Below, one piece after another: positions 1,764 through 35,790 of a DNA stretch of 41,700 bases (positions within the stretch are counted from its first letter, which is position 1; each line of letters starts with the position of its first letter). Source of the DNA: Clostridia bacterium. GTDB lineage: Bacteria > Bacillota > Clostridia > Christensenellales > Borkfalkiaceae. The notes under the pieces were generated by a model. It ran no database searches. It saw only the letters and a list, made by a program, of their open reading frames with translations, and was not told the origin of the DNA. Location of the stretch: assembly GCA_021204625.1 (NCBI GenBank), contig JAJPZA010000041.1, positions 1-41,700 of the forward strand, read 5' to 3'. The position numbers and the translations under genes were made by a program.

Positions 1764-1764
1764 T

Positions 1765-3819: not shown

Positions 3820-3844
3820 GATTTACCCCTTATGATGCATGCCT

Positions 3845-11287: not shown

Positions 11288-11365
11288 ATCCGCCTCCTTA
11301 AGTATTAGTGTGCTCTGTCTTTTTCCCCTGCGCGCATGTATGCGCTTATGTATATTCTGAATTTG

Positions 11366-11382: not shown

Positions 11383-11449
11383 ATAATGCCCACAACGGCA
11401 AAAAAAAGATTATTTGCCGATATGGTTGGTCCGGGGCCGGCTAATACGG

Positions 11450-12950: not shown

Positions 12951-14141
12951 TTACTTGCCGTTTATGCGGCTGTCCCTGAATGCCTCATATTCCGCGAGCA
13001 TTCCTTGCGTTACGCTGTGCGGGTATGTTGCGAGGACGGTCTCTAAGTGGGCCGGGGTCATCTTGATGAACGGCTCATTCTCTCCGAAATGAAGAGACGG
13101 GTTCTCCGCGTTCTTCTTCCTGCATTCCTGCATGGCAAGGTATGCGCACTGCTCTATGATGCCGGATATGTCCGCGCAGGTGTACAGGGAGTCCCCATAC
13201 AGGTTGAGAAGAAGGGCTTCCTTGAAAGACTCTTCATACGGCCTTCCCTTGAGGTTTATCTCCACCGCCCTCTCCTTGGCGTCATTGTTTGGCATGCCTA
13301 TGTAGAACTGAAGGGAGAATCTCTTGTAACGGAGGTACGCCTCGTCCATGAGCTCCGGACGGTTCGTGGCGCCTATTATTACGCGCTTCTGGAACTTATC
13401 TCCCTGGCCGTTCATCTCCTGCAGGAGCTGGTTGGCAACGCCGAGGTTCGCTCTTGTGGCCTCGCCGGTACGGCGTGCGAAGATGCTCTCGCACTCGTCT
13501 ATGAGAAGAACCGCTCCGTCCGTGCAGACGGACATCTCGTCAAAGATGTTCTTGATGTTCTTCTCGGACTCCCCCACGTACGCGCTGAAGATGTCCGAAG
13601 GGGTTATCACGAAGTATCTCACGTTGAGGGCGTTGGCTATGGCCTCCGCGATTAAAGTCTTGCCTGTTCCCGGAGGGCCGTACAGGAGGATGCCTATGTT
13701 GGTGTCTATATGGTACGCCTCGGCCACCTTGGGGTTCTTTATCATGAAGAGATAGTCATATATCCTGCTCTTCACGTCCTCGAGGCCTGCCACGTCCGCG
13801 AAGGTGGTCTTGGGGATTCCACACATGGGAGAGCCGTACTTTTTGAGCCACTCCGTGAGGCCGTATATCTCGTTTGTGTAGCGCTCCTTCTTGTTCACAA
13901 GGTCCGCCATGTCCTTGCTGCCCTCTTTGGCCTGGCCCTTCTTTATGAGCTCGTCATATCCCACTCTGAGCTCATTGGCGCACGTGAACATCTCCTGCGC
14001 CATGCGCCTGAGCTTTCTGGGGGTGTCCTCATCATCCGCTGTGGAATTCTTCTTGTTGGAATCCCTGAGAGTTGCGAAGGCCTTCGCCTTCTCTCTGTAC
14101 TGGGCCTCTATGCCGGGCAAATTCTCTATGTATTCCGCCAT
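12951..14141 (-). CDS. Vps4-like classical AAA ATPase
   Basis: 396 aa. One AAA module follows an N-terminal helical domain of about 105 residues. Visible motifs are Walker A GPPGTGKT (155-162), pore loop 1 SAYVGESEKN with aromatic Tyr188 (186-195), Walker B VLLIDECES (211-219), sensor 1 GATNRPELMD (257-266), and an arginine-finger region RTGEATRANLG / LRYKR. The C-terminus (SVTQGMLAEYEAFRDS) has the helix seen in Vps4/p97-type AAA proteins. The N-terminal domain, with three predicted helices, could be MIT-like, the domain with which Vps4 binds ESCRT-III tails. It follows two ESCRT-III-like genes, so the inferred job is ATP-driven disassembly of their polymer. Other group members (SpoVK-like, p97-like) are the alternative. 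The start follows GAGGAC at good spacing. Confidence 0.85.
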   Translation of the reverse strand: MAEYIENLPGIEAQYREKAKAFATLRDSNKKNSTADDEDTPRKLRRMAQEMFTCANELRVGYDELIKKGQAKEGSKDMADLVNKKERYTNEIYGLTEWLKKYGSPMCGIPKTTFADVAGLEDVKSRIYDYLFMIKNPKVAEAYHIDTNIGILLYGPPGTGKTLIAEAIANALNVRYFVITPSDIFSAYVGESEKNIKNIFDEMSVCTDGAVLLIDECESIFARRTGEATRANLGVANQLLQEMNGQGDKFQKRVIIGATNRPELMDEAYLRYKRFSLQFYIGMPNNDAKERAVEINLKGRPYEESFKEALLLNLYGDSLYTCADISGIIEQCAYLAMQECRKKNAENPSLHFGENEPFIKMTPAHLETVLATYPHSVTQGMLAEYEAFRDSRINGK

Positions 14142-14157
14142 GTATTGTCCTCTTCAT

Positions 14158-14175
14158 GCCTGCCTGACGGCAGGC
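14158..14175 (-). other. Stem-loop in leader of the Vps4-like gene
   Basis: GCCTGCC and GGCAGGC (7-bp perfect arms, 4-nt loop) lie 17-34 nt upstream of the ATPase start, just 5' of its ribosome binding site. No T run follows, so it is not a terminator. It may set the translation or stability ratio between the ESCRT-III-like genes and the ATPase. Confidence 0.5.
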
Positions 14176-14274
14176 TCCTGGTGTGGTTATGTCTGGAAAA
14201 TCCTGCATATGCAGGGGTGTTCATATGGTGCCCACGGAAATATGGGCAGGTGGTCTGCGAATTACGAATATGGA

Positions 14275-14940
14275 TCAGAAATCGTCCGGACGGCCTACGG
14301 AAATGAAATCGTCATCCCCGCCTATGGCGCCGATTGTTCCGCCTGCAGGGTCTGCAGGGCCAATGTACTGTCCGACGGCCTCTCCGCCGGGCTCTCCGGA
14401 GAAACGCTCCGCAAGGCCCTGGTTTGAGCCGATGAGCTTTAAGAACGTGGTCTCGTCATCCGGCTCCGGGGCGGGCGCGTTCTTGCCCTTCTTCTGCTTG
14501 GGCTCAAACATGGAGTCTATGGCGCCCATCATCTTGTCCAGATCCATATCAAACCGGGTGAGGCACTTCCTGAACTTCTTAAGGTTTCTCACCGCCTTCC
14601 TTGTGGTCCCGGCGCTGGTTAAGCGCAGGAAGGAGTTGAAGTTCTTGTTCATCTTCTGCATGACGGCGAACATCTCGGATATGGCCGTCTGGTCCTCTAT
14701 GAGCCCTGCATACTCACGGCTCACCGTGGAAAGCTTGTCCATGAAGATGTACATGTTGGCATGCCTCTTGGCGCGCTTGAAATCCTTCTTCTCCGCGCAC
14801 CTTAGCATCTCCCTGTAATGCGTCTCCTTCTGCTTCTCCGCGGCGTCCGTGGCCTCGTTCGCGCCGGAAAGCATGTCGCTTATCGCTTCCTTGCGCTTGC
14901 GCTCCTGCAGAGCTTCCTTCATCTGGCTTTTCTCGCTCAT
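14275..14940 (-). CDS. ESCRT-III (Snf7/CdvB)-like helical protein 1
   Basis: 221 aa, almost entirely helical and charged. An N-terminal basic amphipathic segment (1-25) precedes a long helix pair. The stretch AEKKDFKRAKRHANMYIFMD (49-68) resembles the ESCRT-III pattern in which a helix carries A-x-x-G/K-D-x-x-x-A-K-x-x-A. RFDMDLDKMMGAIDSMFE (129-146) resembles the conserved helix 4/5 region, then an acidic Pro-rich linker leads to FLKLIGSNQGL (166-176) and a tail DDFISVGRPDD. The last two blocks recur in the paralogue at 15112-15774 and could be docking motifs for the neighbouring AAA ATPase. The start at 14940 (GGAAG site) replaces a longer frame that begins in non-conserved sequence. Similarity was judged by eye; PspA-like or unrelated coiled coil are alternatives. 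Confidence 0.6.
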   Translation of the reverse strand: MSEKSQMKEALQERKRKEAISDMLSGANEATDAAEKQKETHYREMLRCAEKKDFKRAKRHANMYIFMDKLSTVSREYAGLIEDQTAISEMFAVMQKMNKNFNSFLRLTSAGTTRKAVRNLKKFRKCLTRFDMDLDKMMGAIDSMFEPKQKKGKNAPAPEPDDETTFLKLIGSNQGLAERFSGEPGGEAVGQYIGPADPAGGTIGAIGGDDDFISVGRPDDF

Positions 14941-15021
14941 CTTATGTCTTCCTTGTGTGTTTCTGCGGGTGTCTGTCCTCCGGCCCAATAATGGCGCCGG
15001 ATGTCTGGCGTATGTCCTGCA

Positions 15022-15050
15022 TGCCTTCATGCTTGCGGTGAATGAAGGCA
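15022..15050 (-). other. 9-bp-arm inverted repeat upstream of ESCRT-III-like gene 1
   Basis: TGCCTTCAT (15022-15030) and ATGAAGGCA (15042-15050) are perfect complements around an 11-nt loop, about 80-110 nt upstream of the start at 14940. No T run follows on the minus strand. It may be an mRNA stability or processing structure within the operon. Confidence 0.5.
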
Positions 15051-15071
15051 CTGGGGATAACCTGGTATCAG

Positions 15072-15120
15072 CCCGGGTTTAACCCGGGTTTAGTCCGGGT
15101 TTAGTCCGGGTTTAGTCCGG
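15072..15120. repeat. Tandem 11-bp repeat (4.5 units) over a stop codon
   Basis: Plus-strand units are CCCGGGTTTAA, CCCGGGTTTAG, TCCGGGTTTAG, TCCGGGTTTAG and a partial TCCGG. The first units also make a 17-bp near-perfect palindrome (CCCGGGTT, T, AACCCGGG at 15072-15088). On the minus strand each unit holds an in-frame-independent TAA, and the last full unit carries the TAA stop of the ESCRT-III-like gene 2. The array could expand or shrink by slippage without changing the protein. Confidence 0.9.
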
Positions 15121-15774
15121 CCTGCCAACGGATATGAAGCCGTCATCGCCGTCTGAGCCCTTGGAAGGCTGGACATGCACTGCGGCTGGGGCTGCGGCCG
15201 GGCCCGTGGCGTCCTGGTATCTTGAGGAGAGCTCTTGATTGGAGCCTATAAGCTTCATGAAGGCAGCCTCGTCATCCTCCGCGGGAGCGGCGCCCTTGCC
15301 GCCCTTTTTGCCGTCCGAGAACATGTCGTCCATGGCCCCGAGCATCCGGTCCATCTCGCTGTCAAAATTGGAGACGTAGCTGCGGAACTTGTTCATGTTC
15401 CGGATGGTCTTGGCTGTGACGGAGTCTGTGGAGCCGGCGGACAGAAACAGGCTGTTGAAGCTCTTGTTGATCTTCTCCAGGGACTCCAGGGTCTGCATCA
15501 TGGTCTTCTGGTCCTCAAGCATCTCGCCGTACTCGCGGCTCACGTCCGAGAGCTTCTCCATGAACATGTACATCTTGGCGTGCCTCTCGGCGCTCTTGTA
15601 ATCCTTCTTCTGCACGCACTTCACCATCTCGGCGTAGTGCTTTTCCTTCTGCCTGTCCGCAGCATTCTGGGACTCTTTGGCGCTGGATATCATCTCCTGC
15701 ACCGCGGCGTCCTTCTTGCGTTTCTCCAGCGCCTCTTCCATATCGTTCTGAGGCTTTTGCTTTAACAATGCCAT
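15112..15774 (-). CDS. ESCRT-III (Snf7/CdvB)-like helical protein 2
   Basis: 220 aa, a clear paralogue of the protein at 14275-14940. Matching blocks in order are RQKEKHYAEMVKCVQKKDYK (41-60), SAERHAKMYMFMEKLSDVSR (61-80), EYGEMLEDQ (81-89), FDSEMDRMLGAMDDMF (137-152), DDEAAFMKLIGSNQEL (167-182) and the C-terminal FISVGRPD (213-220). A Gly/Lys/Pro-rich linker (155-165) and an Ala/Pro-rich linker separate the helical core from the tail motifs. In eukaryotes and archaea, paired ESCRT-III subunits co-polymerise on membranes and are removed by Vps4; the same arrangement here is an inference. The start at 15774 follows GAAGGAG with a 9-10 nt spacing. The stop lies in a tandem 11-bp repeat. Confidence 0.6.
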   Translation of the reverse strand: MALLKQKPQNDMEEALEKRKKDAAVQEMISSAKESQNAADRQKEKHYAEMVKCVQKKDYKSAERHAKMYMFMEKLSDVSREYGEMLEDQKTMMQTLESLEKINKSFNSLFLSAGSTDSVTAKTIRNMNKFRSYVSNFDSEMDRMLGAMDDMFSDGKKGGKGAAPAEDDEAAFMKLIGSNQELSSRYQDATGPAAAPAAVHVQPSKGSDGDDGFISVGRPD

Positions 15775-15921: not shown

Positions 15922-18900
15922 TTATCTCTTCTTCACGCCGGCGTCCTTTGCGCAGGCGTCCTGGATGCGGGCAATGAGATTGTCCTTCTCCGTGCGGTAA
16001 TTTTTGAGCCAGCGGACTGCATACGCCTTGCACATGTTGTCCCAGCCGTGGGATGCCATGATGGAGTCGCAGGTGCGGACGTATTCGCGGATGGCAAAGC
16101 CCTGCGAGCCCCTGTCCGTCTCGCACATGATGCCGAGGATTACGTGGGAGCGGTCCTCCGAAAGCACCGAGACGGGCACCCTGTAAGACCTGGGGCTGGC
16201 GCCGAAATTGTACACAACCCTGTCCTTCCCCACGACGGACTCGCAGATGGCGCCGATGGACTCCACAAAGTCCGTGTTGAGGTCCGTGTTTGATACGAAC
16301 TGGGCCGAAGAGTCTTCATTGAACTGGCGAAGATAATCCGCCACGTATGAAAGGCTTCTGGAGCCGGAGCGCTCTATCTCTTCCGGGCGTACGGAATGGA
16401 CGAACTTGAGGTTGTCCTTGGCGCGCGTTACGGCCACGTTGAATTTATACAGGGCCACGGGCAGCTGGTTCATGTGGCCCCAGCTTGTTGAGAGGCCTCC
16501 CTGCGGATTGCGGCCGTATGTGAGCGAGAGTATCATCTCGCTCATCTCGTCTCCCTGTATCTCGTCCACAGGGGTTATGGAGAAGACCCTGTTGTCCCCG
16601 AACGAGGCAATCTTTTTGAGCTCCCTGTCCTTTTGCATCATGTCCAGAATCCTGCCCTTCTGGCGGATGCCGAAGACTATGACGCCCAAGGAGTGCTCCT
16701 TGTTGTACTTTTCTATTGCCTCGTCCGTGCGGTCCGGAAGGGGCCACTTCTTGAAGTGCGCCCGTATGAGCTCCAGGACCTTTTTGGCCTCCGTCTCGTT
16801 CTGCCCCTCTCCGCCCTGGATTACCGGCACTTCATCCGTCATGCAGTAATTCCAGAGGCCGAAGTTCTCCTCGCGGGACTTTGGAGACGGGAAGGTGACC
16901 AGCTTTCCGCCGTACAGGTTGGGGTTCTCGTTGGAGTACTTTATAAGGCTCTCATGGTTGGAGCGGTAATGGGTCTTCAAGCTGTACGTGCGGATTTTGT
17001 TGTCATAGGCGTTCAGGATGAAGTCTATGATGCTGTCGCAGGCTATGGCGGAGTCATCCTCGTCCGCCGCGGATGCGTCCGGCCCCTTGGGCTGGAAGTA
17101 TGAAATTGCCGGCATCTGCTTGGGGTCTCCGGCAATCACCACCTGCTTCTTTGTGCGCATAATGGAAGTTAAAGCGTCCTCCGCGGGAATCTGTGAGGCC
17201 TCGTCAAAAATGACGGCGTCAAAATCGTACCGGCCGTACGGCAGGAGCTTTGAGACGGAATAGACGCTCATCATGATGCAGGGCGCCAGCTGGACTATGG
17301 AGTCATGACGGTACTTCAATATCTTGCGCACGGAATAGTTCTTGTCCTGCGTCTGGGTCTCGAGGTAGCTGTGCAGCGTGCTGTTGTGGGTTATCATGGA
17401 TGCGAGCTGCATGTCCACGAGTTTGCGGTTAAACTCGTGCATGTCCCTGTCCGCCTCCGCAAAAGAGGCCGTCATATCCTCCAGCTCCGTGCCCTGCGAG
17501 AGCTTTGCAACCAAGCGGCCCTGGCTGGTGAGATACTCATAGTATGCCCACAGCACTGAGATGCGGAAGTTTGAGGCTATGCGGTCTATGGGGAAGTCCC
17601 TGCGGCTGCGCTTTACGTAGTCCGTGAAGAAAGTCCCTTCCGCCTTTCCTTCCATCTCCTTCGTTATGTTCCTGTATGAGACGTACTCCTCTATATGGTC
17701 CGTGTCCTTGATGTCGTCCAGCCATACTTTAAGGCTTTCATATGTGAGGGCGTCCGAATGCCTCTCATACAGCTCCTCCGGAACGAACCAGACGGGGTCT
17801 GTGTAGAACTTGTTGTAAATGCCGAGGATTCTGTCCGCCTTGGCCACATAGCCGCTGTCTGCGAGCGCCGTGGCTATCTGCGTGAACAGGGCCTTCTGGG
17901 CCTTGTTGTCCTTGCCGCCGCCGAGGACGGTGAATACCTCCTGGATTATGTCCAGAATGCCTAAAATCTCGTCCCATGAAGTGCGGCATCCGTTGTAAAG
18001 GGACGGAAGTATGCTGCGAAGATTCTTGTCTGAATCCAGCCGCCTGGTCTCCGTGTACACGGTGTCATAATCATCCGGGAGGGCGGCAAGCTCCGCCACT
18101 GTTATGTCCTTGCTTATGGAGAACATCTCCGCGCACTCCACGATGTTCTTGAGGTCTGAAAGCCTGTCCTGCGCAAAGCGCCTGAAGCCGTTCTTGGCGC
18201 CGGCCGTGAGATTCTGCACGGCGAAGTCCTCGCGCTCCGCAAGGAACTCCTTTAAAAAGATGTTGAAGTTTGTGAGCGTGTTTACGGACAGGTCCTCTTT
18301 GTCCAGGCCGTATGTCCCGAGAGTCGTGCGTATCTCCTCTTCCGTGGCGTCCACGGTGCTTAAGAAGTCCAGCTTGTTGACGAGGTCAAAGACGTAATTT
18401 ATGGTGAAGTCTATGGACGTGTCCCTGCACATCTTCATGAGGTCCTTGACCTGCCCCTTGAACCCCATGGGAGCCTTCATGCGCTCCACGTTCATGCGCC
18501 ACTTGGTGCGGAACTTCATGAGGAGCTTATGGTAATCATATGTGAGTATTGCGTCATCATATGAGCGGGCCAGCTCCTTCTGGATCTTCTCCGCTTTCGC
18601 GTCATTCACCGTTATCTGGTCTATGGTCTCAATGAGCTCATGCAGGTCCTTCAAGGAGAGCTGGTCTATCCTTGAGCTCTTGCTGGCCGCAATTCTGTCC
18701 AGGGTCTTGTTCACGATGCGGGCCCTGTCCAGCTCCTCGTTTATCCTTGAGAGCGTCCAGTCCGCGTAATCCTCTGCGGAAGAGAGCTTGGAGCGGACCT
18801 TTCTTGAGTCCGTGTCCGGGAGCTCTTCCGTTATGGCGTAATATCTTGCGGCTGCGTCCGCGTATCCGCGGGAGCGGTCCCGCTCCGCCGTTACTGCCTT

Positions 18901-20748
18901 TATCTGCTTTTTAAGGTCTCCGGAAAACAGAGTCTCAAGGTCCAGGGCCACATTGTTGTCCGCCACGGCCTGCACGGATGAAAGGGGCAGGCTCTTTAAG
19001 TCTGCTATGACCTGCTCCATGCCGCTGCCGCCGAGGGTCTCGAGGGAGTCATACGCATGCTCCAGAATGTCCAGGGCCTCTTGGGCGGAGCTTACATAGC
19101 CGTTGAGCTTGGACTGGTCTGCTCCTGTGTATTCCGCCTTTCTGAACCCGTACCACACGTCCGCGGGAAGAGACCCGGACCTGGAAAGGATGGAGACAAG
19201 GAGTTTCTGCGTCCTCTCCATCTTCTCCGCCTTGAGATCCAGCTCCTCACGGGTAAGCGTCTTGAGCTGCGCCTCCGGCACGCTGATCCGGACATAGTCC
19301 CCCTGGTATCCGAGGGCCATAATCTTTCCCGCTATGTCATACAGGGACATCTGCATGGAATTGTTCTTGTCCCACAGCTCCCTGCTGTACCCCTCCAGGT
19401 TCTGCCTGGACAGGCTGAATTTTCTTATGTTGTCCTGGTACTGCAGCTCATTCATGCGGGCGGGCGCAGTGTTGTATGACGCCTGGAGCTTGCCGTACGT
19501 GTCGCTGACGTTGTTCTTCTTGGTCTCGTCATCCCCGGTTATAAGCAGGCAGTGCTTGTCTATGTTCACCCCGGGCATGAGCTGGAGCTTCTTTATGACG
19601 GTGTTGAGAGCGGACATCTTGCCGGAGACGAAAAGGACCTTCTTTCCCGCCATGATGCTTTCCGCTATCATGTTGATTATGGTCTGCGTCTTGCCGGTTC
19701 CGGGAGGCCCCTCCAGGACAAAGCTCTCCCCGCGCTTGAAGCGCTCTATTACCTCATGCTGGGAGGAGTCGCTGTCCAGAAGCTCAAAGGAGCTCTTTAT
19801 GTCCATGCGGTTTAAAACCTCTTCCGAAGAGGCTGCGTCCAGCCTGGCTATCTCCGCGGCGTCCTTTCCCGCAAGCTGGATTTCCTCGCCGAACATGGCG
19901 CGTATTACGGGGTTTGCCACGATTTCGTCCTCGTTTTTGAGGACGTCCCTGTACATGCATATGCGGCTGTAATCAAAGGTGTCTATGCCAACGAAATCCG
20001 TGTCCAGCTCAAAGGGCAGATCGTCCGGCATGGAGTCGCACATCTTCAGGAACTGCTCATAATATGCGTGGAGGTCAAAGGAATCGTACTCCCCGGAGTC
20101 CCTGGAAAGGTCTATGCTCTGCCCTTCTGGAGGAAGAGGGAAATTCTTGTACCCCTCTTCGCCGTAACGCTTTATAAGCACGGGGTTTATGGTGGCATCA
20201 TTCGAGTCTGCGGGCACGGGATTGAGCCAGTAGCTCGTGCCTATCCTTGAGATTTTCACAGGCACGAAAATGAGGGGCGTGGTAATCTTCACATAGTCCA
20301 CGGTCTGCTCCCCGTTCTGCCTCGAGACTATCTCGCCGTAATCCGCGTCCGTGGGCGACGTGCTTGTGACAAACCATGTGAGTTTGCCGAAAACCATGCA
20401 CACCGGATTCTCTCCGCGCTGCACAATTGTTGCGTTGCCCTTGTCTATGACCTTGTCCAAAGCGTCCAGAGAGTGCGAGCCGTTCGCGTCCCACTCTATC
20501 CTGGATCCTTTCCGGACGTAAAAAGAGGCGCTTGAGAACGGGTACTCCGCTGCCCCGCCTCTGTCCGCTGCAATCTGCCAGAAAGAGTCCACGCTGTACT
20601 TTTCATTGGCAAGCAGGCGTATGGTGTCCGTAGCCTTCCCCTTCCTGTCCGGATTCATATTGAGAAGGTTGTTATGCTTTATGGAGGAGTTGAGATATTC
20701 ATCCCTCCACTTCTGAACCTGTTTTCTTACCTTGTCATCCATTTCCAT
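15922..20748 (-). CDS. Large SF1 DNA2/NAM7-like helicase with DUF4011-like N-terminus
   Basis: 1608 aa. The N-terminus (KWRDEYLNSSIKHNNLLNMN, 13-32) resembles the DUF4011-type start of large SF1 helicases. Motor motifs are split by an insert of more than 800 residues: Walker A LEGPPGTGKTQT (345-356), motif II FDEAS (~1180-1185), motif III AGDPKQMP (~1206-1213), motif IV-like THYRSNHESLIKYSN, and motif VI FNVAVTRAKDNL (~1434-1446). The insert is largely coiled-coil. The last ~120 residues (LGIMCETDR then SHGWDNMCKAYAVRWLKN) look like the degenerate restriction-endonuclease-like (Vsr/MTES_1575) domain that ends many such helicases, with acidic residues but no clear full catalytic set. It probably moves on DNA or RNA. 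Start follows GGAGAGAG. Confidence 0.85.
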   Translation of the reverse strand: MEMDDKVRKQVQKWRDEYLNSSIKHNNLLNMNPDRKGKATDTIRLLANEKYSVDSFWQIAADRGGAAEYPFSSASFYVRKGSRIEWDANGSHSLDALDKVIDKGNATIVQRGENPVCMVFGKLTWFVTSTSPTDADYGEIVSRQNGEQTVDYVKITTPLIFVPVKISRIGTSYWLNPVPADSNDATINPVLIKRYGEEGYKNFPLPPEGQSIDLSRDSGEYDSFDLHAYYEQFLKMCDSMPDDLPFELDTDFVGIDTFDYSRICMYRDVLKNEDEIVANPVIRAMFGEEIQLAGKDAAEIARLDAASSEEVLNRMDIKSSFELLDSDSSQHEVIERFKRGESFVLEGPPGTGKTQTIINMIAESIMAGKKVLFVSGKMSALNTVIKKLQLMPGVNIDKHCLLITGDDETKKNNVSDTYGKLQASYNTAPARMNELQYQDNIRKFSLSRQNLEGYSRELWDKNNSMQMSLYDIAGKIMALGYQGDYVRISVPEAQLKTLTREELDLKAEKMERTQKLLVSILSRSGSLPADVWYGFRKAEYTGADQSKLNGYVSSAQEALDILEHAYDSLETLGGSGMEQVIADLKSLPLSSVQAVADNNVALDLETLFSGDLKKQIKAVTAERDRSRGYADAAARYYAITEELPDTDSRKVRSKLSSAEDYADWTLSRINEELDRARIVNKTLDRIAASKSSRIDQLSLKDLHELIETIDQITVNDAKAEKIQKELARSYDDAILTYDYHKLLMKFRTKWRMNVERMKAPMGFKGQVKDLMKMCRDTSIDFTINYVFDLVNKLDFLSTVDATEEEIRTTLGTYGLDKEDLSVNTLTNFNIFLKEFLAEREDFAVQNLTAGAKNGFRRFAQDRLSDLKNIVECAEMFSISKDITVAELAALPDDYDTVYTETRRLDSDKNLRSILPSLYNGCRTSWDEILGILDIIQEVFTVLGGGKDNKAQKALFTQIATALADSGYVAKADRILGIYNKFYTDPVWFVPEELYERHSDALTYESLKVWLDDIKDTDHIEEYVSYRNITKEMEGKAEGTFFTDYVKRSRRDFPIDRIASNFRISVLWAYYEYLTSQGRLVAKLSQGTELEDMTASFAEADRDMHEFNRKLVDMQLASMITHNSTLHSYLETQTQDKNYSVRKILKYRHDSIVQLAPCIMMSVYSVSKLLPYGRYDFDAVIFDEASQIPAEDALTSIMRTKKQVVIAGDPKQMPAISYFQPKGPDASAADEDDSAIACDSIIDFILNAYDNKIRTYSLKTHYRSNHESLIKYSNENPNLYGGKLVTFPSPKSREENFGLWNYCMTDEVPVIQGGEGQNETEAKKVLELIRAHFKKWPLPDRTDEAIEKYNKEHSLGVIVFGIRQKGRILDMMQKDRELKKIASFGDNRVFSITPVDEIQGDEMSEMILSLTYGRNPQGGLSTSWGHMNQLPVALYKFNVAVTRAKDNLKFVHSVRPEEIERSGSRSLSYVADYLRQFNEDSSAQFVSNTDLNTDFVESIGAICESVVGKDRVVYNFGASPRSYRVPVSVLSEDRSHVILGIMCETDRGSQGFAIREYVRTCDSIMASHGWDNMCKAYAVRWLKNYRTEKDNLIARIQDACAKDAGVKKR

Positions 20749-20889: not shown

Positions 20890-22719
20890 TTAAGGCTGGC
20901 TCATCTTGGCGAGCTGGGCGTCCTCGCTCTCGGCCCAGGCCTCGTCCGCGAAGACGCGGGCGTCCGCTTCAAAGACCTGCACGTGGTACCCGTTGTAATC
21001 CTGGCTGGATTCTATGTAGCCGCGGGTGGAGTTGTCCTCCCACGCCTCCTTTATCCTGTACTCCGTGATGCCGAAATTGTACTTGTAATATTCCAGGAGG
21101 TCCATCTGCTCCGCGCAGTTCTCCCCTTTTCTGCGCTCCACCTTGCGGAGGGCCTTCACGGCCTCGTTCTGCACCGCATGGAAGAGCTCATGCAAAAGGG
21201 TGTTGCATCCGTCTGCCGCGCATGAAATGTCCCTTGCGAACTTCTTGTTGAAGCGCACTGTCTGGCCGCCGTCACAGCACTCCCCGTTCATGTTGGAGTT
21301 TTCCGGGATGTCAAAGACGAAGTTGCCTGTGGGCACTTTCATAAGCTGCGTGAGGGCCGCATACCCCAGGGTCCAGCGCGCCTTCATCTCGTCCTCGTTG
21401 TCCTTCGTGACGTTCACAAGGTTCATGGCGTCCCCGTTGGTCAGCGCATATCTCAAGACCAGTCCGCACTTTTGCATTACGGAGATGGGGTTCCCCTCAT
21501 AATCCTCGTTCGTGTCCAAAACGTACTGGACGCTTGCACGTATGGCGGAGATGTCATCCATGCAGTCATAATCATACTGCGTCACGGGGATGGTGTATTT
21601 TACCGGCGCGAGTGTGCCTGTGGGATGAAGGGTCTTCTTCCTCGCCGGCTTTTTGTAATCCCAGTCCGTGTCCACAATGGCCGCCGTGGCGCTGTCTCCG
21701 GCCTTGCCGAGGAAAGAGTTCAGCATCCTCTTGCGCTTGGAGACTATGGCGTCCGCCTTTTCCCTGAAGGCGTCCGGCATGGCTGCCTGCTTTAAGATGT
21801 CCGTGAGGGCCCCGCATGCGAGCGGCAGGCAGTTGGCCTTTATGTATGCCTCCATTGCGCCTGCATCCGCAGACGGGGAATCCGTCTGGGAGTCATCCGA
21901 GGTTAAATGAAGGGCGTTCAGGACGGTCTTCGTTACATCCCTGCACGTGGGCATGGGAAGATACACGAATGTGAGGGCCTTTACGGAGAAGTCATCCTCT
22001 AAGATGTTGCCGCGGACCGCGGGGGCGTCAAAGAGGGAAATGTACAGGTCGTTGAAGTAATATGTCGGGTCTGTGGAAAGAAGGAGCTGCGTGCAGCTCT
22101 TTGCCTTGAGACGGAGCTGGCGAAGGACCTTTGCGAAAATCTTCGCCTCCTCGTCATGGCCCTGGAAGGCTTCCAGGCCCTTGTATACTATGAGGTCTTT
22201 CCCGGCTCCCGCGGAATAGTACGCGTGCAGGAGCTGGAGGACTTTGCCTATTGAGCCGGTCTTTATGAACGGCTCCATGTCCACAAAGCGCATGTCCATG
22301 CCGCAGCTTCTGGCGAAGTTTCTGGCCTCGAATACGAGTTCGTCTTCAAACGGCCCGCAGAGGATCATTGCGTTGTCCCGGTACATGCGGCCCACGCCTG
22401 TGTCTATGACGTATGAAACGGAAAGGACGGGCGAGGGCGTGTCCTTTGAAAGCGTCAAAGGGCACAGAGCATCCAGGTCCTTTCTGGACACCGTCTGGGG
22501 ATGGTCCGTAAGGCCGCTCTCCGCGGTGAGGGTCTTCTTGCGCCTTAGGTTTATGAGGAGCTCGCCCATGGCGTTTTTCTGCCCGCCTGCGGGAAGGGCC
22601 GTGTAATAGTTGGCAGCGCAAGACAGGGCATGGTCTATGGACGAGAGGGTGTACCCTTCTTCACGGCAGCGCTGCGTCGCCGCCATTACCTCGTAATAAA
22701 GGACTTTGAGGTCATCCAT
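20890..22719 (-). CDS. Putative HExxH metallopeptidase with degenerate P-loop-like domain
   Basis: 609 aa. A zincin active site is present near the C-terminus: HELFH (510-514, two zinc His and catalytic Glu511) with a likely third ligand Glu584 in FEADARVFADE. This fits a gluzincin-like protease core of about 130 residues (480-609), well conserved in its key residues. The middle region (~115-225) has AMILCGPFEDE followed by strand/helix patterns and DLIVYKGLEAF, resembling an AAA/P-loop fold that has lost its Lys/Thr Walker A residues. No signal peptide, so it is probably cytosolic. It begins 9 nt after the upstream gene stop. Possible role: cleaving a partner protein in this system, such as a polymer subunit or the membrane protein; this is speculation. 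Confidence 0.65.
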   Translation of the reverse strand: MDDLKVLYYEVMAATQRCREEGYTLSSIDHALSCAANYYTALPAGGQKNAMGELLINLRRKKTLTAESGLTDHPQTVSRKDLDALCPLTLSKDTPSPVLSVSYVIDTGVGRMYRDNAMILCGPFEDELVFEARNFARSCGMDMRFVDMEPFIKTGSIGKVLQLLHAYYSAGAGKDLIVYKGLEAFQGHDEEAKIFAKVLRQLRLKAKSCTQLLLSTDPTYYFNDLYISLFDAPAVRGNILEDDFSVKALTFVYLPMPTCRDVTKTVLNALHLTSDDSQTDSPSADAGAMEAYIKANCLPLACGALTDILKQAAMPDAFREKADAIVSKRKRMLNSFLGKAGDSATAAIVDTDWDYKKPARKKTLHPTGTLAPVKYTIPVTQYDYDCMDDISAIRASVQYVLDTNEDYEGNPISVMQKCGLVLRYALTNGDAMNLVNVTKDNEDEMKARWTLGYAALTQLMKVPTGNFVFDIPENSNMNGECCDGGQTVRFNKKFARDISCAADGCNTLLHELFHAVQNEAVKALRKVERRKGENCAEQMDLLEYYKYNFGITEYRIKEAWEDNSTRGYIESSQDYNGYHVQVFEADARVFADEAWAESEDAQLAKMSQP

Positions 22720-22728
22720 CCGCTAATT

Positions 22729-24462
22729 TCAGCCTCCGTTCTTCATCATCTCGACTTCGCGCAGGATGCTGTTGATCTCATCCTCGTCCGGAATCTGGTT
22801 TTCAGGCTCCTGCTCTTTCTCGGGCTCCTTTTCCGGCTCCTCTGGAGCTCCGCCGCCAAACTGGGCGAACTCGTCCAGAGGGTTCTTCTCGGGCTCCTTT
22901 TCCGGCTCGCCGAACATCTTGCCCCACTGTTCCATCTCCTGACGCTCCTTCTCGATCTCCTCCGGAGTCTTCTCCCTCTTCTCGGGCTCGGGCTCGCCGG
23001 GAACATCCAGCCTGGGGAGCTTCTTCTGGACGCCTGTGACGTTGACGTCTATGGCCGTCTTTATGATGTCTATCGTGTCGTTGTCATGATCTGCCAAAGC
23101 TTTCTGGTACAGCTCCACGATGTCCGCTATGCTGTTTATGACCACGTTGTCCTTGCGGCGGGAGAACAGCTTCTTGGGACGGACGTAGTTTATGTTGTCC
23201 TGCACCTTTTTAAGGTACTGCTGGTAATTCTTGAGCGTTAAGCGGTACTGGCCGGGAAGGGGGATGAAATAATCCCTAAGGGACTCCACGTACGCGGCAA
23301 GCTCGTTGTACGACTGGCCGGTGACTGCGTAATACTCCGAGAGCTTTTTGATGTTTGCCTCGTTATGGGCCTGCCTGTTCTCCATCTGCTTCGTGACGTT
23401 TCTTAGCTGTGAGGATATGATGTTGCGCTGGGCGTCCGTGCGGGCCTCCTTGAGCTGCTTGTACAGCTTCTCGCCTTTCTCCTGCAGGGTCTTGAGCTGA
23501 TGGTCTTCATTGAGCCCCTTGATGCCGAACATGATGTTGACGGCGTTGTCATACATCTTGTTTATGATGCTGTCCGCCTGGTTAAAGGTCTTGTATATCA
23601 CAATGCCGGCGTCCAGTTCGTCCAGCTTGTCCGGGTCCGCCTTTCCAACTTCTATTGTGGCCGTGTTGGGATACGGCTCCCCGAGGTCCGCGCCCTTCAC
23701 GGCCCTGGACCGGGTAAGCTCTCCGGATCTGGCCATGTCCGTGAGCTTTTCCGCCTTCTCCGCAACCCTGTTGAGGTTGTTGTCTATGTCATATCCGTAG
23801 TCCTTTGCCACGGATGAGCGTATCTTGTCCAGCTCCGCGCGTATCTGCTGGTACAAATCGTACGTGGCGGCAGTGTTGGGAATCTCCGTGTCAGCTATCG
23901 TGTCCTTGATCTGCAGAAGACGGTCTATTGTGTCCTGCACGCTTCCGGCGTCCGTTCCGGCGTAATCACAGGAAAGCTTGTCAAAGGACGCTATGTCATC
24001 CGCTGTCTGCGAGATGAGGCTTATAAGGTTGTTCTTAATTTCGCTGGTCATGATGGTGGTTCCCCCTTCATTGTTCTCTACATATCTTTTGATTGTCTCA
24101 TAGCTGGACCTGGCGTCCTCCCAGTCATACAGCCTGGACAGAATGTTGTCAAAATCAGCCGGCCCCACCGCGCTGGCCACCGCGTTCGTGACCCTCGAAA
24201 GCAGCGCCGCGCACGAGGCGTCCGCCTGCGCCTGGAATTCCCTGAACGCGCTCCCGTACGCTCTGATTGGCACCCGGCAGAAATCCGGGTCCGAGAGCAT
24301 GCTCTCAGCCCTCTCTATCCTGTCCCTCATCGCGGGATTGTTCTTCTTCGCTTCCGCAAGCCCCTTGAGCGCCTGCCTTCTCGCATCTTCCGCACGCATA
24401 CGCTGTGTCTGCATCTCCTTCATTATTCCAAAGCGCTCATAATATGCGCTTCCGTGTGCCAC
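22729..24462 (-). CDS. Long coiled-coil protein with acidic Pro/Glu-rich tail, unknown family
   Basis: 577 aa starting at a GTG (24462) just after AAAAGGAAA; an ATG at 24423 is a possible later start. Residues 1-~450 are predicted helices with frequent charged heptad-like stretches (e.g. EKGEKLYKQLKEARTDAQRN). Residues ~478-560 are a low-complexity Pro/Glu/Lys tail with several EPEKEPEK units, ending in a short acidic helix DEDEINSILREVEMMKNG. I do not recognise the family. The gene precedes the metallopeptidase-like gene by 9 nt and follows another helical protein gene. A structural scaffold or an adaptor for the ESCRT-III-like proteins fits the composition but is not shown. Confidence 0.6.
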   Translation of the reverse strand: MAHGSAYYERFGIMKEMQTQRMRAEDARRQALKGLAEAKKNNPAMRDRIERAESMLSDPDFCRVPIRAYGSAFREFQAQADASCAALLSRVTNAVASAVGPADFDNILSRLYDWEDARSSYETIKRYVENNEGGTTIMTSEIKNNLISLISQTADDIASFDKLSCDYAGTDAGSVQDTIDRLLQIKDTIADTEIPNTAATYDLYQQIRAELDKIRSSVAKDYGYDIDNNLNRVAEKAEKLTDMARSGELTRSRAVKGADLGEPYPNTATIEVGKADPDKLDELDAGIVIYKTFNQADSIINKMYDNAVNIMFGIKGLNEDHQLKTLQEKGEKLYKQLKEARTDAQRNIISSQLRNVTKQMENRQAHNEANIKKLSEYYAVTGQSYNELAAYVESLRDYFIPLPGQYRLTLKNYQQYLKKVQDNINYVRPKKLFSRRKDNVVINSIADIVELYQKALADHDNDTIDIIKTAIDVNVTGVQKKLPRLDVPGEPEPEKREKTPEEIEKERQEMEQWGKMFGEPEKEPEKNPLDEFAQFGGGAPEEPEKEPEKEQEPENQIPDEDEINSILREVEMMKNGG

Positions 24463-24560: not shown

Positions 24561-25397
24561 CTAAATCCTGGAGGCGTCCAGGTACATCTGCATCTGGTCC
24601 GACTGCCATGATGAAAGCCCGAGGACCTGCGAGTCGTCCGCCCTGGGGTTGGTCTTATTTTTGGACACGCCCGAGTAGCGCACGCTCCAGCCCTTGGCGA
24701 TTCTGTCCGCTTCATGAAGGGCGTCCGCCATGGAAGGCTCCAGCATGAGATAGGCGTATACGGACACGTCCCGCCATACCTTTATGCAGTCTATGATCCG
24801 GGCGGCTGTCTGAAGGCCGGCCACGGAGGAATTGTCCACGACGAGGGTGAGGCTTTCCTTGATGTCGTTGAGCGTGGAGGCCACGTCCTTCATTACGGCC
24901 TTTATGGTATTCTGCCACTGGTCATATCCGGCGTATGAGGCACGCTGGAGGTACTGCTCATTGATCTTTCTGTACTCTATCTCGTCCACGGTGTCCGCAT
25001 CCTTTTTCATGGCCTTGAGAGCGTCCGCCGTGCTCTTGACGCAGTCATTTACCCTGAGGTTGAGCCCTAAGCTGTTGCTGCCCTGAGGGGCCGTGCGGTT
25101 TATCTCATCCGCCGCTGCCGCGAGGCTTCTGAACTTGCTTCCGCCGGCGTCCGTGTTCCTGAGCGACAGGATTGAATATGCCGTCTTGACTCCCTTTTTG
25201 AGGGAGTCCGTGGCAGCCTTGCTGTCATAGCCGTTGTTTATGACATAGTCCAGGGCCCGCTGTATGGCCATAATGCAGATGTTGTATGCCGGAAGGGCGT
25301 ACGTCTGCACGCTCCCCGGAGCGTAGAGCTTTCTGCCCCTTTCCAGGTATCCGTATGCGTCCAGCGCCTCGTTTATGTTGTTTCTGTCCAGTGCCAT
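24561..25397 (-). CDS. Helical protein of unknown family
   Basis: 278 aa, nearly all alpha-helical by composition, with no signal peptide, membrane segment or catalytic motif that I can name. Notable pieces are an N-terminal MALDRNNINEALDAYGYLER, a central SLKKGVKTAYSILSLRN, and a C-terminal LGLSSWQSDQMQMYLD. The start at 25397 has GGGAGAT then AGGGC before it. It lies between a minisatellite-like repeat array (25434-25559) upstream and the 577-aa coiled-coil gene (98-nt gap) downstream. Being in the same transcription unit suggests a structural partner role in the operon. Function unknown. Confidence 0.6.
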   Translation of the reverse strand: MALDRNNINEALDAYGYLERGRKLYAPGSVQTYALPAYNICIMAIQRALDYVINNGYDSKAATDSLKKGVKTAYSILSLRNTDAGGSKFRSLAAAADEINRTAPQGSNSLGLNLRVNDCVKSTADALKAMKKDADTVDEIEYRKINEQYLQRASYAGYDQWQNTIKAVMKDVASTLNDIKESLTLVVDNSSVAGLQTAARIIDCIKVWRDVSVYAYLMLEPSMADALHEADRIAKGWSVRYSGVSKNKTNPRADDSQVLGLSSWQSDQMQMYLDASRI

Positions 25398-25433: not shown

Positions 25434-25559
25434 CTGCGCTGTCCGCGCTTCGCAGCCTCTTGCGCTGCCTTCTGCGCTGTCCGCGCTTCGCAGCCTCTTG
25501 CGCTGCTGTCTGCGCTGTCCGCGCTTCGCATCCTTTGCGCCGTCTGCGCTGTCTGCGCT
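25434..25559. repeat. Tandem 38-bp repeat array (about 3.3 units)
   Basis: Copies begin at 25434, 25472 and 25510, each starting CTGCGCTGTCCGCGCTTCGC, with a partial copy at 25544 that ends at 25559, inside the stop codon of the 399-aa protein. The first two units are 38 bp with only end differences; the third is shortened to 34 bp. It fills the 160-nt gap between two operon genes. Unit length is not a multiple of 3, and no good start site reads into it. No unique spacers, so it is not CRISPR. Confidence 0.9.
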
Positions 25560-26757
25560 ATTTCTCCCATGCTCCTGTGTACTCTCCGGACGAAAGCATC
25601 AGGAATCCGGAGATGATGCTGCTGTAATTCTCTTTACCGGCCTCGCGTTTAAGCTTTCCCTTGTTGGCGGAAACGAAATAGCCGTCATCCCAGTAGAATA
25701 TCTGCTCCTTCTTTCCGGACGCGCTCACAATCTCGGCCATGCCGTTCTGCGTGCCGTTGTCTATGACCACGTCCTCCAGAGAGCTTGCCTTGAAGCCCTT
25801 CTTGTACACCTTGCTCGCGGACCCCTGGTTGAAGAAGTAGAAATACAGCTTAAGGCCCGGGTCTCCGTTCATGATTCTCTCCGCCTCGCTGTTCCCTATT
25901 CCGGCCCATTCCATATAGCCGCCCTGCTCATACAGAAGGCCCATGACGATTCCCTTGGGATATTTTGCGGAAAGAGCCTTGACGCCGTAATACTCGTCCG
26001 GGGTTATCTCAAAATACCCGAACAGGGGCGAATGCGAGGAGGACTTTTCCTTGCACCGCTCCAGCGTCTTTGAAATCCTCTTCATCTTGTCCGCGGCCTC
26101 TTCCGCCGCGGTCCTGAAGGCGAAATCCCCCATGTCCCCTATCTTTATGTACTTGTTGCTCTCTATGAGCTCCTTGGCTTTCGCCAGCGAATACTCCGGC
26201 TGTTCTGTGAGCTCCTCCGGAGCGGATGATATCATGTCCAGCATATAGTACGCCGCCTTTGTGGCGACCCTTGCGGCCTCGTCCGTGGGGCTCCCCGCAA
26301 TTCCGTTGTCCCTGAAGTACGCCGCATACTTGTCATGAAGGTCATCAAAGTTGTTGGGGTCTATGATGCATCTGAAATACGAATACGCCGTCTTGTATCT
26401 TCCCACGCCCACGACGTCCTCGTTGACGTAGTTCTTGCTGTAATAATACCCGAGGTCCACGATGGCTTCCGGATGAAGGGCGTTGGCCGCGTTTCCGCAG
26501 AACTCCACGGCCCTCTCCAGGTATCCTGAAGTTTCCTTTTTCTCCTTGTCCGTGGTCTTCTCGCTTTGCCCGGAGGCCCGCTCAAGGTATGTGAAAAAAT
26601 TGGCCCTTGAGAGCCTGTACAGCTCATCATTGTCCCTTGTGACATCCAGGTCCCCCTCTCCGGGAACGATGCCGGCCCCGCAACCGGGGCACCTTAAATC
26701 CCCGTTGAAGAGCTCCAGGGCCTTGACTATATCCTTGCCGCACTTTCTGCATTTCAT
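25558..26757 (-). CDS. Zinc-ribbon protein with helical middle and unknown C-terminal domain
   Basis: 399 aa. The N-terminus (MKCRKCGKDIV then RCPGCGAGIV) has two CxxC pairs that make a zinc ribbon, residues 3-25. A helical middle (30-220) has Sel1/TPR-like character with YLERAVEFCGNAANALHPEA. The C-terminal part includes GYFEITPDEYYGVKALS, a mixed alpha/beta domain with GNSEAERIM that I cannot name. The start at 26757 is preferred over one 8 codons earlier because GGAGG precedes it at 9 nt. It begins 4 nt after the stop of the MBG membrane protein. Likely a cytosolic adaptor; two paralogous-style zinc ribbons in the operon (also 30606-32582) suggest a shared binding job, but this is inference. 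Confidence 0.7.
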   Translation of the reverse strand: MKCRKCGKDIVKALELFNGDLRCPGCGAGIVPGEGDLDVTRDNDELYRLSRANFFTYLERASGQSEKTTDKEKKETSGYLERAVEFCGNAANALHPEAIVDLGYYYSKNYVNEDVVGVGRYKTAYSYFRCIIDPNNFDDLHDKYAAYFRDNGIAGSPTDEAARVATKAAYYMLDMISSAPEELTEQPEYSLAKAKELIESNKYIKIGDMGDFAFRTAAEEAADKMKRISKTLERCKEKSSSHSPLFGYFEITPDEYYGVKALSAKYPKGIVMGLLYEQGGYMEWAGIGNSEAERIMNGDPGLKLYFYFFNQGSASKVYKKGFKASSLEDVVIDNGTQNGMAEIVSASGKKEQIFYWDDGYFVSANKGKLKREAGKENYSSIISGFLMLSSGEYTGAWEK

Positions 26758-26761
26758 ACCG

Positions 26762-29700
26762 TCATGCCTCCGTGATTTCAAAGCTCTTCTGCGTCTCTCC
26801 GGAAAGAGTGCAGTTGACGGTGTCCGAAAGGACTGCCTTCACAACATAGCTGCCCGGATCTGTGGGGCTGGATGAAAGCTTCGTTCCGTCTTCCGTGTAA
26901 TACTCATAGGTGAAGTATACGTTCTCCGAAAGCGTTGCCGTGGGCACCGTGCCGTCTGTATTCCACTCTATTGTAATTGTTTTGGGAGAGATTGTAAAGG
27001 TGCAGGAATCATTGGACAGTGTGTAATTTGCACTGTCCGAAAGGGTTGCCGTGGCTGTATATGTGCCTGCGTCCGTTGCTTCGCCGGATATGATCAACTC
27101 AACCGTGTCTCCCTCAGCAATGCCTTCAGCTGCAGCCGAGGGCTTCTGGGCAGAGCCGTTGTATGTGAGCTCCGTGTCCGTCCAGGTGATTGTCACGGTC
27201 TTCGGAGAGATTGTGTAGCCGCATGACTCACTGCCTGCCGCTATGAAATAATTGCCGGATCCAAGCGTTGCGGTCTGCGTGTAACTGCCTGCATTCACGC
27301 TGTCCGTCACGCTGTATGTGAAAGTCAAATCATCAAAGGAATCCACTCCGTCCACGAGGCCTTCAGCGGAGATTGCCGCAGGATACTGCGCTTTTCCGCT
27401 GTACGTGAAGGACGAGCCGCTCCAGGTGAGCGTGAGCGCTTTCTTCGCTATCGTATAAACCAGCGAATTGTTGGAGAGCGTGTAGTTGGAGTCATCCGTA
27501 AGGGATGCAGTGGCCGTGTACGTCCCGGCGTCCGTGCCGGAGCCCGTCACTGTGAATGACACGCCGTCCCCCTCCGCAAGGTCCTCTGTGGAAGCCGAAG
27601 GGATCTGCGCCTGTCCGTTATACGTGAGATCCAGGTTGGTCCAGGCGAAAGTCACGGTTTTCTTGCCGATTGTGTATGAAGTCTCATTGCCGGACAGGAT
27701 ATAGTTGCCGTTGGAGATGGCAACGGACGCCGTATATGTGCCCGCGTCCGCTGCATTGTCCGCAGTGTATGCGGCCTCAAGAAGCTCGTCCGTTATCTCA
27801 TCCTCGCCGAGCGTTGAGATGCCGTACGTGTAGACGGGGTTCTGCACGGAGCCGTTGTACGTGAAGGACGTGCCGGACCAGATCACTTCCAGAGTGTATG
27901 CGGAGATTGTGTATGAGTATGCAGGCTCCTCGCTTTCGGCAATGCGGTAGTTGGCTGTTTCAAGGGAGACAGCCGTGGAATAGCTGCCCGCATTCCTGCT
28001 CTCCGTATTGGTGTACGCGAAGGGTATGGATGAAAGCTTGTCCGAGCCTTTAAGGCCGGTCACGCCGGAGATTACGGGATACTGGATCTCCCCGTTGTAT
28101 GTGAATGAATCGCTGTCCCAGACAAGGCCGGAAAGCTCCGCCTTGGCTATGGTGTAGTCCGTGGTAGCTCCCTCGGCGATGTAATAGTTTCCGTCCGTTA
28201 TGTACACGGTCTCGGAATAGCTGCCGGCGTCGAAGCCGGAAGAGCCGTAATACAGCGTCACGGTCTCACCGCTGACGGCCCCCTCAGCTTCCGCTTCGGG
28301 ATGCTGGGATCCGCCGCTGTACACAAGCTCAGTGTCCGGCCACGTGACTTTCAGGGGAGCCTTCTCAACCGTGAAGGACACCGTATTGTTTGAGACGGTG
28401 TAGTTGCCGTTGGAGACGGAGACTTCCGCCGTTCCGCTCCCCGCATTTGTTATTGCTCCGGAAACGGAGTCTCCGGCCGTCTCCCCTTCAAACGGGTGTA
28501 CCGTGTATTCCGGCACATGGGAGGAGCCGTCATAGGTGAATGTGGTGTCACCCCAGGTCACGGCGAGGTCATAGGGTGAGATGGTGTAACTGTATGTTGT
28601 GCCTGTGGCCGCGTACAGGTCCGCGCAGGTGCCCGTCAGGGAAACGGATGCCGTATATGTGCCGGCGTTTGTGGCCGCTGCGTTTGATGTGCTGTACGTT
28701 ATGGCGTCCCCGTTCACAACCTGGGAGCCGTTGTAGCTGCAGGATATGGTTTTCTCCGTGGCGCTGTACGTCATGTTGTCGTCATCCTGCCATGAGAAGC
28801 TCAAGGTCATCTTTGAGATGGAGACGGTCACGGAGCTTGCATTGGATGAGCTGAGGCTTGTGGCGTGCTCCCCGGCCGAAGGTCCGGAGACTGTCACGTA
28901 CGCATAATACGTGCCGCTGTCCGCAGGGGTTGCAAGGCTGTTGGTGTATTTGGCCTCATAGCCTATCGTTCCGTTTGCCGCGGAGCAGGCCCAGTCATAG
29001 GAGACCGTCATCCAGCTGTATTCCGGTTCGGTTTTCGCTGTGAGCTCCAGAGCCGTTCCGTACGTTATGGACGTGGAGCCTGAAATCGCGGGAGCGTCCG
29101 GAATGTCCATCTCCCATGCAGGAAAAATCTCCATTCCGTCCTGCACAACGGATGCGAAATCGTCCAGCGTGTAAGTGTATCCGTTCATCTCGTACTCCCA
29201 CACATACGAGAAGCCTTCGCGCCCTGTGAGGCCATTGAGAATTTCCCCGCAGGTGCCTGCAGTCACATACCTGTATCCTGTGGACTTGCCGGTAGTCGTG
29301 CTCGTGTATGACGTGAGGCTTGCAGGAAGAGTGTACAGGTCATCGTTGTCCTCGAGGACGGTAATCCTGTATACGTCCGTGAAGTTCACCGCAACGTCAT
29401 GGCTGGCCTTCAGGGCCGTGCCAGTTATAGGCTGGGAATCCTCGTCCGTGAACGTGGAGAGCATCTGCCTGTTCGTTGTGGTGTAGCTCATGTAGCGGTC
29501 TTCCTCGGACTGCTCGTCTGAGTATACCATGTAGTCGTATGAATCGGTTATAAGGGACTGCTGGAACGTCGTGCCCGAGTCAAGGACAAGCGTTGAAAGA
29601 GTCTCAAAGTTTGCGGTCTTAAGGTTTGAGTACGTGTACGTGAATGAGACGTACACCTGGCCCTCTTCCGTTATGGGCTTCACGCAGTTGCCGTAATCCG

Positions 29701-35500: not shown

Positions 35501-35790
35501 TCCTGGTGCTTTAAAATGACGTTCCCGTCCCCGTGCACGACGTCATCCCTTTTGATGCCGTACCTTGAGCCGGGCGTCTTCTCGTACGCCTTCATGCTTA
35601 TTTTGAGGGAATCAAAGTCATCGAACCTGTCCAGCACGTCCACGGCCCTTTCCATGCGGTCCACGTAGGAAGTGAATTTCTCAACCCTTCCCATCTCCTT
35701 TTCCGTCTGCTTGGCCGAGGAGAACTTGTTCTCGACATCCTTTATTTCAATTTTGCCGACCCCTTTCAGGATCTTCTCATCTTTTCCCAT
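32569..35790 (-). CDS. SNF2-like SF2 helicase with Cys-rich C-terminal tail
   Basis: 1073 aa. The motor has motif I ADVVGSGKT (114-122), motif II DEAH (223-226), motif III SATPHNGD (262-269), and motif VI QKIGRIFRLGQSRN (~703-716), all in the SNF2/SWI2-type SF2 order. Residues ~760-1010 hold many Cys/His pairs, for example CVQCRECKK, CNKLCALSKC, CPHYDACKRGLYRCSC and CPVCRAE, consistent with several zinc-binding folds. SNF2-type proteins are DNA or nucleoprotein remodellers that hydrolyse ATP. The start at 35790 has AGGG about 9 nt before. It follows the Hsp70-like gene after a 234-nt gap and overlaps the next gene by 14 nt. Substrate unknown; it may remodel protein-DNA complexes in this system. 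Confidence 0.88.
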   Translation of the reverse strand: MGKDEKILKGVGKIEIKDVENKFSSAKQTEKEMGRVEKFTSYVDRMERAVDVLDRFDDFDSLKISMKAYEKTPGSRYGIKRDDVVHGDGNVILKHQENAAAMFLKNLRGFGLLADVVGSGKTFEAGVVLSELCYRGKVGTLLVVALGEVIDSWREVLCEKFGLGDCLQVITRATPSCEDWRKIIERKGLRPTHPILVDLQVFKMWADSNVFSQGCVFDMIIVDEAHELCNENNLPAMAQLSRMIQEKRRDGSGSECYCLMLSATPHNGDLKGMFPLWYFIRRRGGDPREFFAGEGANNAHGADYLAERAFYTGNVCKGAENISDFVKNKKLEDFRRREDNITTPIRAAFEAWLAEKGRAISAFDIANDWYRISWIDEFLEEPSNSKWMADENRSVAQAYKELLGLIMIRQPRSEIRNISVYKKVVNLYFCPVRKGSMKDKKFQVQGPGGVQMELDFKDTIAKFPDKYYPQKNIGGYKHKLFDDIPMAPQKYYAAVSRALMTTLSGDDYAVPDADALAGFKPNYLRYYDTMLANYPDKHSSLQTYQGAEKGLSGQFNLVMPYEYALDADSYKNKLSYVVKILQKHKNERVIIFFDYDLPSNREKVRVDGTVEPSLYDRLETDLKAALKKKGSAREFISVDASKAADPDSGDDSGISRADLARFNDDANPDCILIVKGGYTHGANLQKAAVIINFQVSCNPVDMEQKIGRIFRLGQSRNVTVYSLADVNRLEGYALAYFTGIGLFAVDNGDATILSGCNDSNMVCVQCRECKKVLVMPQKEYDTYMGELRMGGEQNGGYISRLAPDERKAYVYVKSQGKEMEATYRDDYENNPLICKEAHADKCMYLMDVISNAEFVCSKDATHRLSRSSAGRGGYKCMDMFSPRIMCSTGAPHKRVYFCNKLCALSKCREHRDQFPDCEAVSAYEAGELYINAVDKCLHSSRGGKCPHYDACKRGLYRCSCLPPRSDLQMADSVSECMKCFGRGSVSFDCTPGPYVLDFDDNWGTECPVCRAEGLSGARRGKLEQVKIKTFSGHIQYLWNSSLGDAQFCDILDKEFRQVKEIEEIREVSGDADN

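Follow-up and report, generated by a model that had tools for sequence, protein, structure and literature searches.

A clustered pair of bacterial small proteins with a predicted ESCRT-III-like fold and a CDC48-branch AAA ATPase

Introduction

The locus described here raises the question of whether a bacterium can encode small proteins of the ESCRT-III kind together with an AAA ATPase that would remodel them. It lies in a stretch of 41,700 nucleotides (the window), positions 1 to 41,700 of contig JAJPZA010000041.1 in the Clostridia bacterium assembly GCA_021204625.1. Since this assembly of 233 contigs is listed with 5.35% contamination, the assignment of the contig to its host is uncertain. 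A preliminary description had seen in the locus an ESCRT-III-like pair with a Vps4-like ATPase. On balance we favour a related reading, in which the small proteins would form an ESCRT-III-like polymer at the membrane, remodelled by the AAA ATPase and serving a membrane-associated complex made by the rest of the cluster.

Gene organisation and conservation

Three genes are encoded in one run on the minus strand at 12951-15774. The first, small1 (15112..15774), encodes 220 aa from an ATG at 15774. The second, small2 (14275..14940), encodes 221 aa; its mechanical ORF call began at an upstream GTG and the ATG at 14940 was taken instead. Both are followed by a 396-aa AAA ATPase (12951..14141). Since small1 and small2 share 47% identity over 217 columns (E 7e-63), they are paralogues, which bears out the arrangement first described: two paralogous proteins of about 220 aa, then an AAA ATPase, on the same strand. 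The two helix motifs quoted at that time are also present in both proteins with one-residue deviations, the first as KKDYKSAERHAKMYMFM and KKDFKRAKRHANMYIFM and the second as FDSEMDRMLGAMDDMF and FDMDLDKMMGAIDSMF. A Pro/Ala/Gly-rich linker and a common C-terminal tail, DDxFISVGRPD, are likewise found as described, while the N-terminal region is a mixed-charge helix and not purely basic.

When 297 genomes of the order were searched with an alignment of the ATPase, 19 gave a match at E<=1e-60, the window's own among them. We compared 21 loci, namely the window, two relatives (G172 and G502) and all 18 other neighbourhoods, with extra stretches for 12 of the 18 and for G502; the extra stretch of G361 covered the wrong flank and was uninformative. 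The cluster runs in the order Hsp70-like protein, SNF2, a homologue of the window's 658-aa protein, MBG membrane protein, zinc-ribbon protein, a protein of about 500 aa (12 loci including the window, assigned from position only), an optional zincin and SF1 helicase, small protein and AAA. The entire span from Hsp70-like protein to AAA is visible in 15 of the 21 loci (the window, G172, G502 and 12 others), the other six reaching contig ends, and the Hsp70/actin-like gene is the first of the cluster in all 15. G172 and G502 keep the same gene order, G502 without helicase and zincin.

A same-strand ORF of 188-284 aa lies directly upstream of the AAA gene in 18 of the 21 loci, that is, in the window, G172, G502 and 15 of the 18 neighbourhoods. 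Two of the three misses are at contig ends; at the third, L054 (genome G430), the stretch preceding the AAA gene (about 9500-10450) yielded no callable small ORF. The pairing of small protein and AAA is part of a cluster present in about twenty related genomes. Moreover, each paralogue has a counterpart elsewhere, P0002 being 60% identical to small1 and P0008 77% identical to small2. Since the arrangement recurs in relatives and the paralogues have these counterparts, it is not due to chance. In G418 two small proteins precede the AAA gene (L053:11307-11873 and L053:11951-12697). Since this second pair is 28% identical, and small1 and small2 each have their own counterpart, duplication has probably occurred more than once.

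The small proteins fall into two families. Family I has 12 members including small1 and small2 (profile search, 8000 candidates scored). Most of the 18 neighbourhoods carry a protein of family II, which resembles family I little in sequence. With 12 family II sequences as query, 36 of 8000 scored candidates were recovered, and those four of them that have a name come from Clostridia. The score between the families (43.9, hhalign) is weak by itself because family II reaches 37.4 against its own reverse, and the kinship of the two families rests on gene order.

The other cluster genes of the window are all on the minus strand. A 772-aa Hsp70/actin-like protein (36025..38343), labelled from motifs read by eye and assigned nothing by Pfam, is followed by a 1073-aa SNF2-family ATPase (32569..35790; PF00176, 5.4e-6) with a C-terminus that is Cys-rich by eye. 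The 658-aa protein (30606..32582), with cysteine clusters seen by eye, has same-position homologues in relatives and no match in the plasmid collection. The membrane protein (26762..30586) has five TM-like segments followed by MBG Ig-like repeats (MBG_2, 8.7e-6), and no other protein among the 14 of the window examined by hydropathy scan has such segments. Next are a 407-aa zinc-ribbon protein (25558..26781), also with same-position homologues in relatives, a 278-aa protein (24561..25397) and a 577-aa protein with an acidic C-terminus (22729..24462), the G172 and G502 counterparts of the last two being assigned from position only. The 577-aa protein and its own counterparts end in a short acidic-hydrophobic stretch, and the protein is possibly another client of the AAA. 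A 609-aa zincin-like protein (20890..22719) was so labelled by eye from a HELFH motif; a Pfam scan gave no match, its G172 homologue also has HExxH, and a scan of the genome-contig collection with the two sequences gave one record, taken to be G172's own. Last comes a 1608-aa SF1 helicase (15922..20748) with a weak C-terminal match to the MTES_1575 REase family (Pfam, E 0.013). Outside the cluster, two Sel1-repeat proteins lie side by side upstream (38841-41447). The stretch at 9360-12784 has a YolD-like protein (sub-threshold) beside a Y-family DNA polymerase-like protein (label by eye), and this pair is followed by a MgsA/RarA-type AAA (11450-12784).

Several of these genes recall conflict systems, and it is a realistic possibility, if somewhat short of probable, that the whole cluster is an anti-phage system with the ESCRT-like pair as its membrane or assembly module, an idea compatible with a polymer. 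The SF1 helicase is related to the defence candidate PDC-S37 (PADLOC, 1.8e-149) and to ProA (NCBIfam, 5.3e-143, under cut-off), the SNF2 ATPase gives BrxH/DrmD-type matches in PADLOC, and PADLOC places an MZA-type system near the cluster at 183-9162. The cluster also appears rare in the window's own family, the small-protein search finding it in at least 2 of 201 genomes. Against this, the ATPase is present in 13 of the 17 genomes of one genus, and five of the six loci fetched from that genus have the same downstream transporter-like gene (label by eye), so that the cluster looks like a stable trait there. Furthermore, the SF1 helicase is present in 12 but absent from seven of the 19 loci where this could be determined, and the family-I small protein of G502 found no match by tblastn of phage and plasmid collections.

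Predicted fold of the small proteins

The ESCRT-III-like polymer that we favour depends on the fold of the small proteins. The AlphaFold2 model of small1 (pLDDT 69.8, moderate confidence) has helices at 7-55, 59-112, 117-152, 168-178 and 180-190, predicted to form a hairpin of helix 1 with helix 2/3, then an elbow, helix 4 and helix 5. The ESCRT-III hairpin and helix order are therefore both in the model, and Foldseek returned members of the ESCRT-III superfamily at all of ranks 1-20. CHMP1B, CHMP2A, Snf7 and Asgard ESCRT-IIIB outranked PspA/Vipp1, which appeared at rank 9 and below. The fold Z is middling for a helical protein.

The register of the structural match could be compared with that of the sequences. 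Among gapless offsets it ranks first for CHMP1B by a clear margin and for Snf7 by a narrow one, and lies outside the best four for Shrub, PspA and Vipp1. When the offset is carried over from the CHMP1B alignment it comes first for CHMP2A, second for CHMP1A and third for Vps24; the CHMP2A agreement holds only via that alignment, since the VIA superposition of CHMP2A itself is poor (rmsd 31.6) and its end residues indicate a slightly different offset.

Sequence searches gave less. Neither small1 nor small2 matched any Pfam or NCBIfam family above cut-off, Snf7 and PspA_IM30 included, the same holds for the scanned homologues, and PADLOC returned weak coiled-coil matches only. Profile searches of the PDB yielded a single chance-level match for family I (E 2.8) and chance-level matches only for family II. 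A core model of family I scored yeast Snf7 at 14.5 bits, where 1998 scored shuffles peaked at 10.0, and nine other references all stayed below 4 bits. Against a thin ESCRT-III profile family I scored 25.6 (15.6 against its reverse). The yardstick for equally thin profiles was ESCRT-III against a two-sequence PspA/Vipp1 profile, accepted homologues which scored 21.5 (reversed, 12.7). Since family I reached 24.6 with family II reversed and 33.4 with itself reversed, its ESCRT-III score is weak; its score against PspA/Vipp1 (14.3, reversed 13.1) is background. With these reversed controls and the narrower register result, the sequence link to ESCRT-III becomes weaker.

A three-sequence small-protein alignment found no relatives in the genome-contig and viral-contig collections. 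Weak matches were taken as chance in G531 (other gene context), G717 (internal stops) and G404, G234 and G1018 (short pieces only). The ESCRT-III-like layout put forward in the preliminary description is thus carried by the model and its fold matches, while significant sequence matches are absent. We take the fold as ESCRT-III-like with fair though not full certainty, a prediction that stops short of making the small proteins established members of the superfamily.

The AAA ATPase and the C-terminal tail

The ATPase is a complete classical AAA protein (Pfam AAA, 2.3e-34) with intact Walker and pore-loop sequences. Among NCBIfam models it scored highest with CDC48 (142.6 bits, 1.4e-41), followed by PAN (130.8 bits) and CdvC (129.1 bits, 1.8e-37), all under their cut-offs, and its best 60 PDB sequence matches are p97/CDC48 and close kin (NVL, Rix7, AFG2). 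All 21 cluster ATPases have the VAT register LRxxRF before the arginine finger, a place at which yeast Vps4 lacks two residues. Their identity is 32-38% with VAT D2 and 27-33% with Vps4, measured over unequal lengths since the VAT D2 sequence in the alignment is partial. Judged by these comparisons the AAA core is of the CDC48 branch and not Vps4. Its N-terminus is predicted, in an AlphaFold2 model of the ATPase from three sequences, to form three helices of 25-29 residues each (8-32, 39-67 and 76-102), the AAA core being poor in that model, and three N-domains gave no match to Pfam MIT. Of the Vps4-like partner originally proposed, the adjacency and the predicted helical N-domain hold, and the core belongs elsewhere.

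The C-terminal tail of the small proteins is conserved. Family II proteins keep their last residues, (I)DDI(V/I/A) or WGDDIL, after a variable Gly/Ser/Ala-rich linker. The pattern [DGS]D[IVL] occurs within the last eight residues in all 44 family II proteins longer than 200 aa, where shuffles expect 0.6; the pattern was picked after inspection, and removal of near-duplicates leaves 19 proteins. Of four shorter database proteins, two carry it (P0040 and P0043) and two lack it (P0046 and P0047), giving 46 of 48 in total. The 188-aa protein that is the second small one of G418 is without the conserved tail, and family-I tails differ (DDFISVGRPD, GMPDGI, DDIPGGL). The tail does not appear to match MIM1 or MIM2. 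It looks as would be expected of an ATPase docking site, and we infer that it may bind the AAA.

On another explanation the pair would serve a CDC48-like unfoldase as coiled-coil adaptors or substrates, which the AAA would use to engage other cluster proteins, their hairpin having arisen independently and with neither polymer nor membrane involved. The CDC48-branch core would suit such a role, as would the middling Z, the non-significant sequence link to ESCRT-III and a profile score close to its reversed controls. We nevertheless regard it as unlikely, since the top 20 fold matches are all ESCRT-III and not assorted coiled coils, the sequence register coincides with the structural one for CHMP1B and Snf7, and a variable linker with a conserved tail recalls ESCRT-III. 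A type VII secretion-like device of helical hairpin substrates with an EccA-like AAA chaperone, hinted at by matches to WXG100_2 (E 0.3) and LXG (E 0.027) that stay below threshold, is highly improbable and was rejected, since no EccC/FtsK-type ATPase is among the Pfam matches of the cluster and the AAA scores 39.9 bits with EccA versus 142.6 with CDC48. An IetAS-like pair of AAA and protease was also rejected: the IetA matches are taken to reflect AAA homology, and in seven loci no zincin turned up.

Proposed function

In the polymer model that we favour, small1 and small2 would co-assemble at the membrane, on its cytosolic side. The conserved C-terminal tail, borne on a disordered linker, would be offered to the N-domain of the AAA with its three helices, and the AAA hexamer would then extract subunits through its pore, causing the polymer to turn over. 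The complex served by the polymer would comprise the five-TM protein with Ig-like repeats, the SNF2 ATPase, the Hsp70-like protein, the zinc proteins and sometimes the SF1 helicase and zincin. Two features suggest membrane contact: the cluster has a single membrane protein, and 9 of 13 family-I proteins contain a cationic amphipathic segment; small1 and small2 are not among the nine, the moment alone is unspecific, and ordinary helices of small1 and small2 can reach equally high amphipathic scores.

More tentatively, bacteria of this order might possess in the cluster a complete machine of the ESCRT-III type, with ESCRT-III-fold subunits and a dedicated remodelling ATPase recruited from the CDC48 branch, in which a dynamic membrane-bound polymer is coupled via the five-TM surface protein to the SNF2, Hsp70-like and helicase proteins, and in which nucleic acid or a large envelope complex either controls the polymer or is acted on by it. 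If this is true, it would suggest that the polymer-plus-remodeller design can be built with a different AAA branch, and the cluster, which points to about ten partner genes, would be a small testable system for ATP-driven ESCRT-III turnover beyond archaea and eukaryotes.

Comparison with known systems

The literature already holds bacterial pairings of this general kind. According to excerpts from a 2024 study by Ravi et al. (PMC11237479), homologues of PspA and Snf7 in bacteria occur in AAA+ operons, for which ATP-dependent membrane remodelling was suggested; the earlier view that no such bacterial pairing was established was therefore too strong. Those operons resemble the present locus in that a gene of the ESCRT-III superfamily neighbours one for a classical AAA+ protein. 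They differ, in the excerpts, in having ABC transporter, permease and OmpA/PBPB genes or a protein with two AAA domains, and the excerpts do not mention the partner genes of the present cluster. Part of a 2023 review (PMC7615534) describes bacteria as having no clear Vps4 homologue. We found no prior report of this cluster in the open-licence literature, a body that leaves out bioRxiv.

Vps4 and CdvC resemble the cluster AAA in their single classical AAA domain, helical N-domain, predicted C-terminal helix and ESCRT-III-like neighbours. In contrast, the cluster AAA has the CDC48-type register, the CdvC model ranks under CDC48 and PAN, and its C-terminal part seems by eye too short for the Vps4 beta domain. 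Since CDC48 outscores CdvC and the register is unlike that of yeast Vps4 in all 21 loci, the ATPase is not filed as Vps4. PspA and Vipp1 have the superfamily fold in common with the small1 model, but stand below the four ESCRT-III proteins in Foldseek and at background in profile score. Archaeal and eukaryotic ESCRT-III (CHMP1B, CHMP2A, Snf7, Asgard ESCRT-IIIB, CdvB) are the closest comparison: they share the predicted helix order and hairpin, tandem paralogues, a linker with a tail and an AAA neighbour, whereas the small proteins have no significant sequence match to them, no recognised MIM in the tail, a bacterial origin and a cluster with SNF2, Hsp70-like and MBG proteins. On our proposal, the pair would work in the manner of ESCRT-III with a remodelling AAA ATPase.
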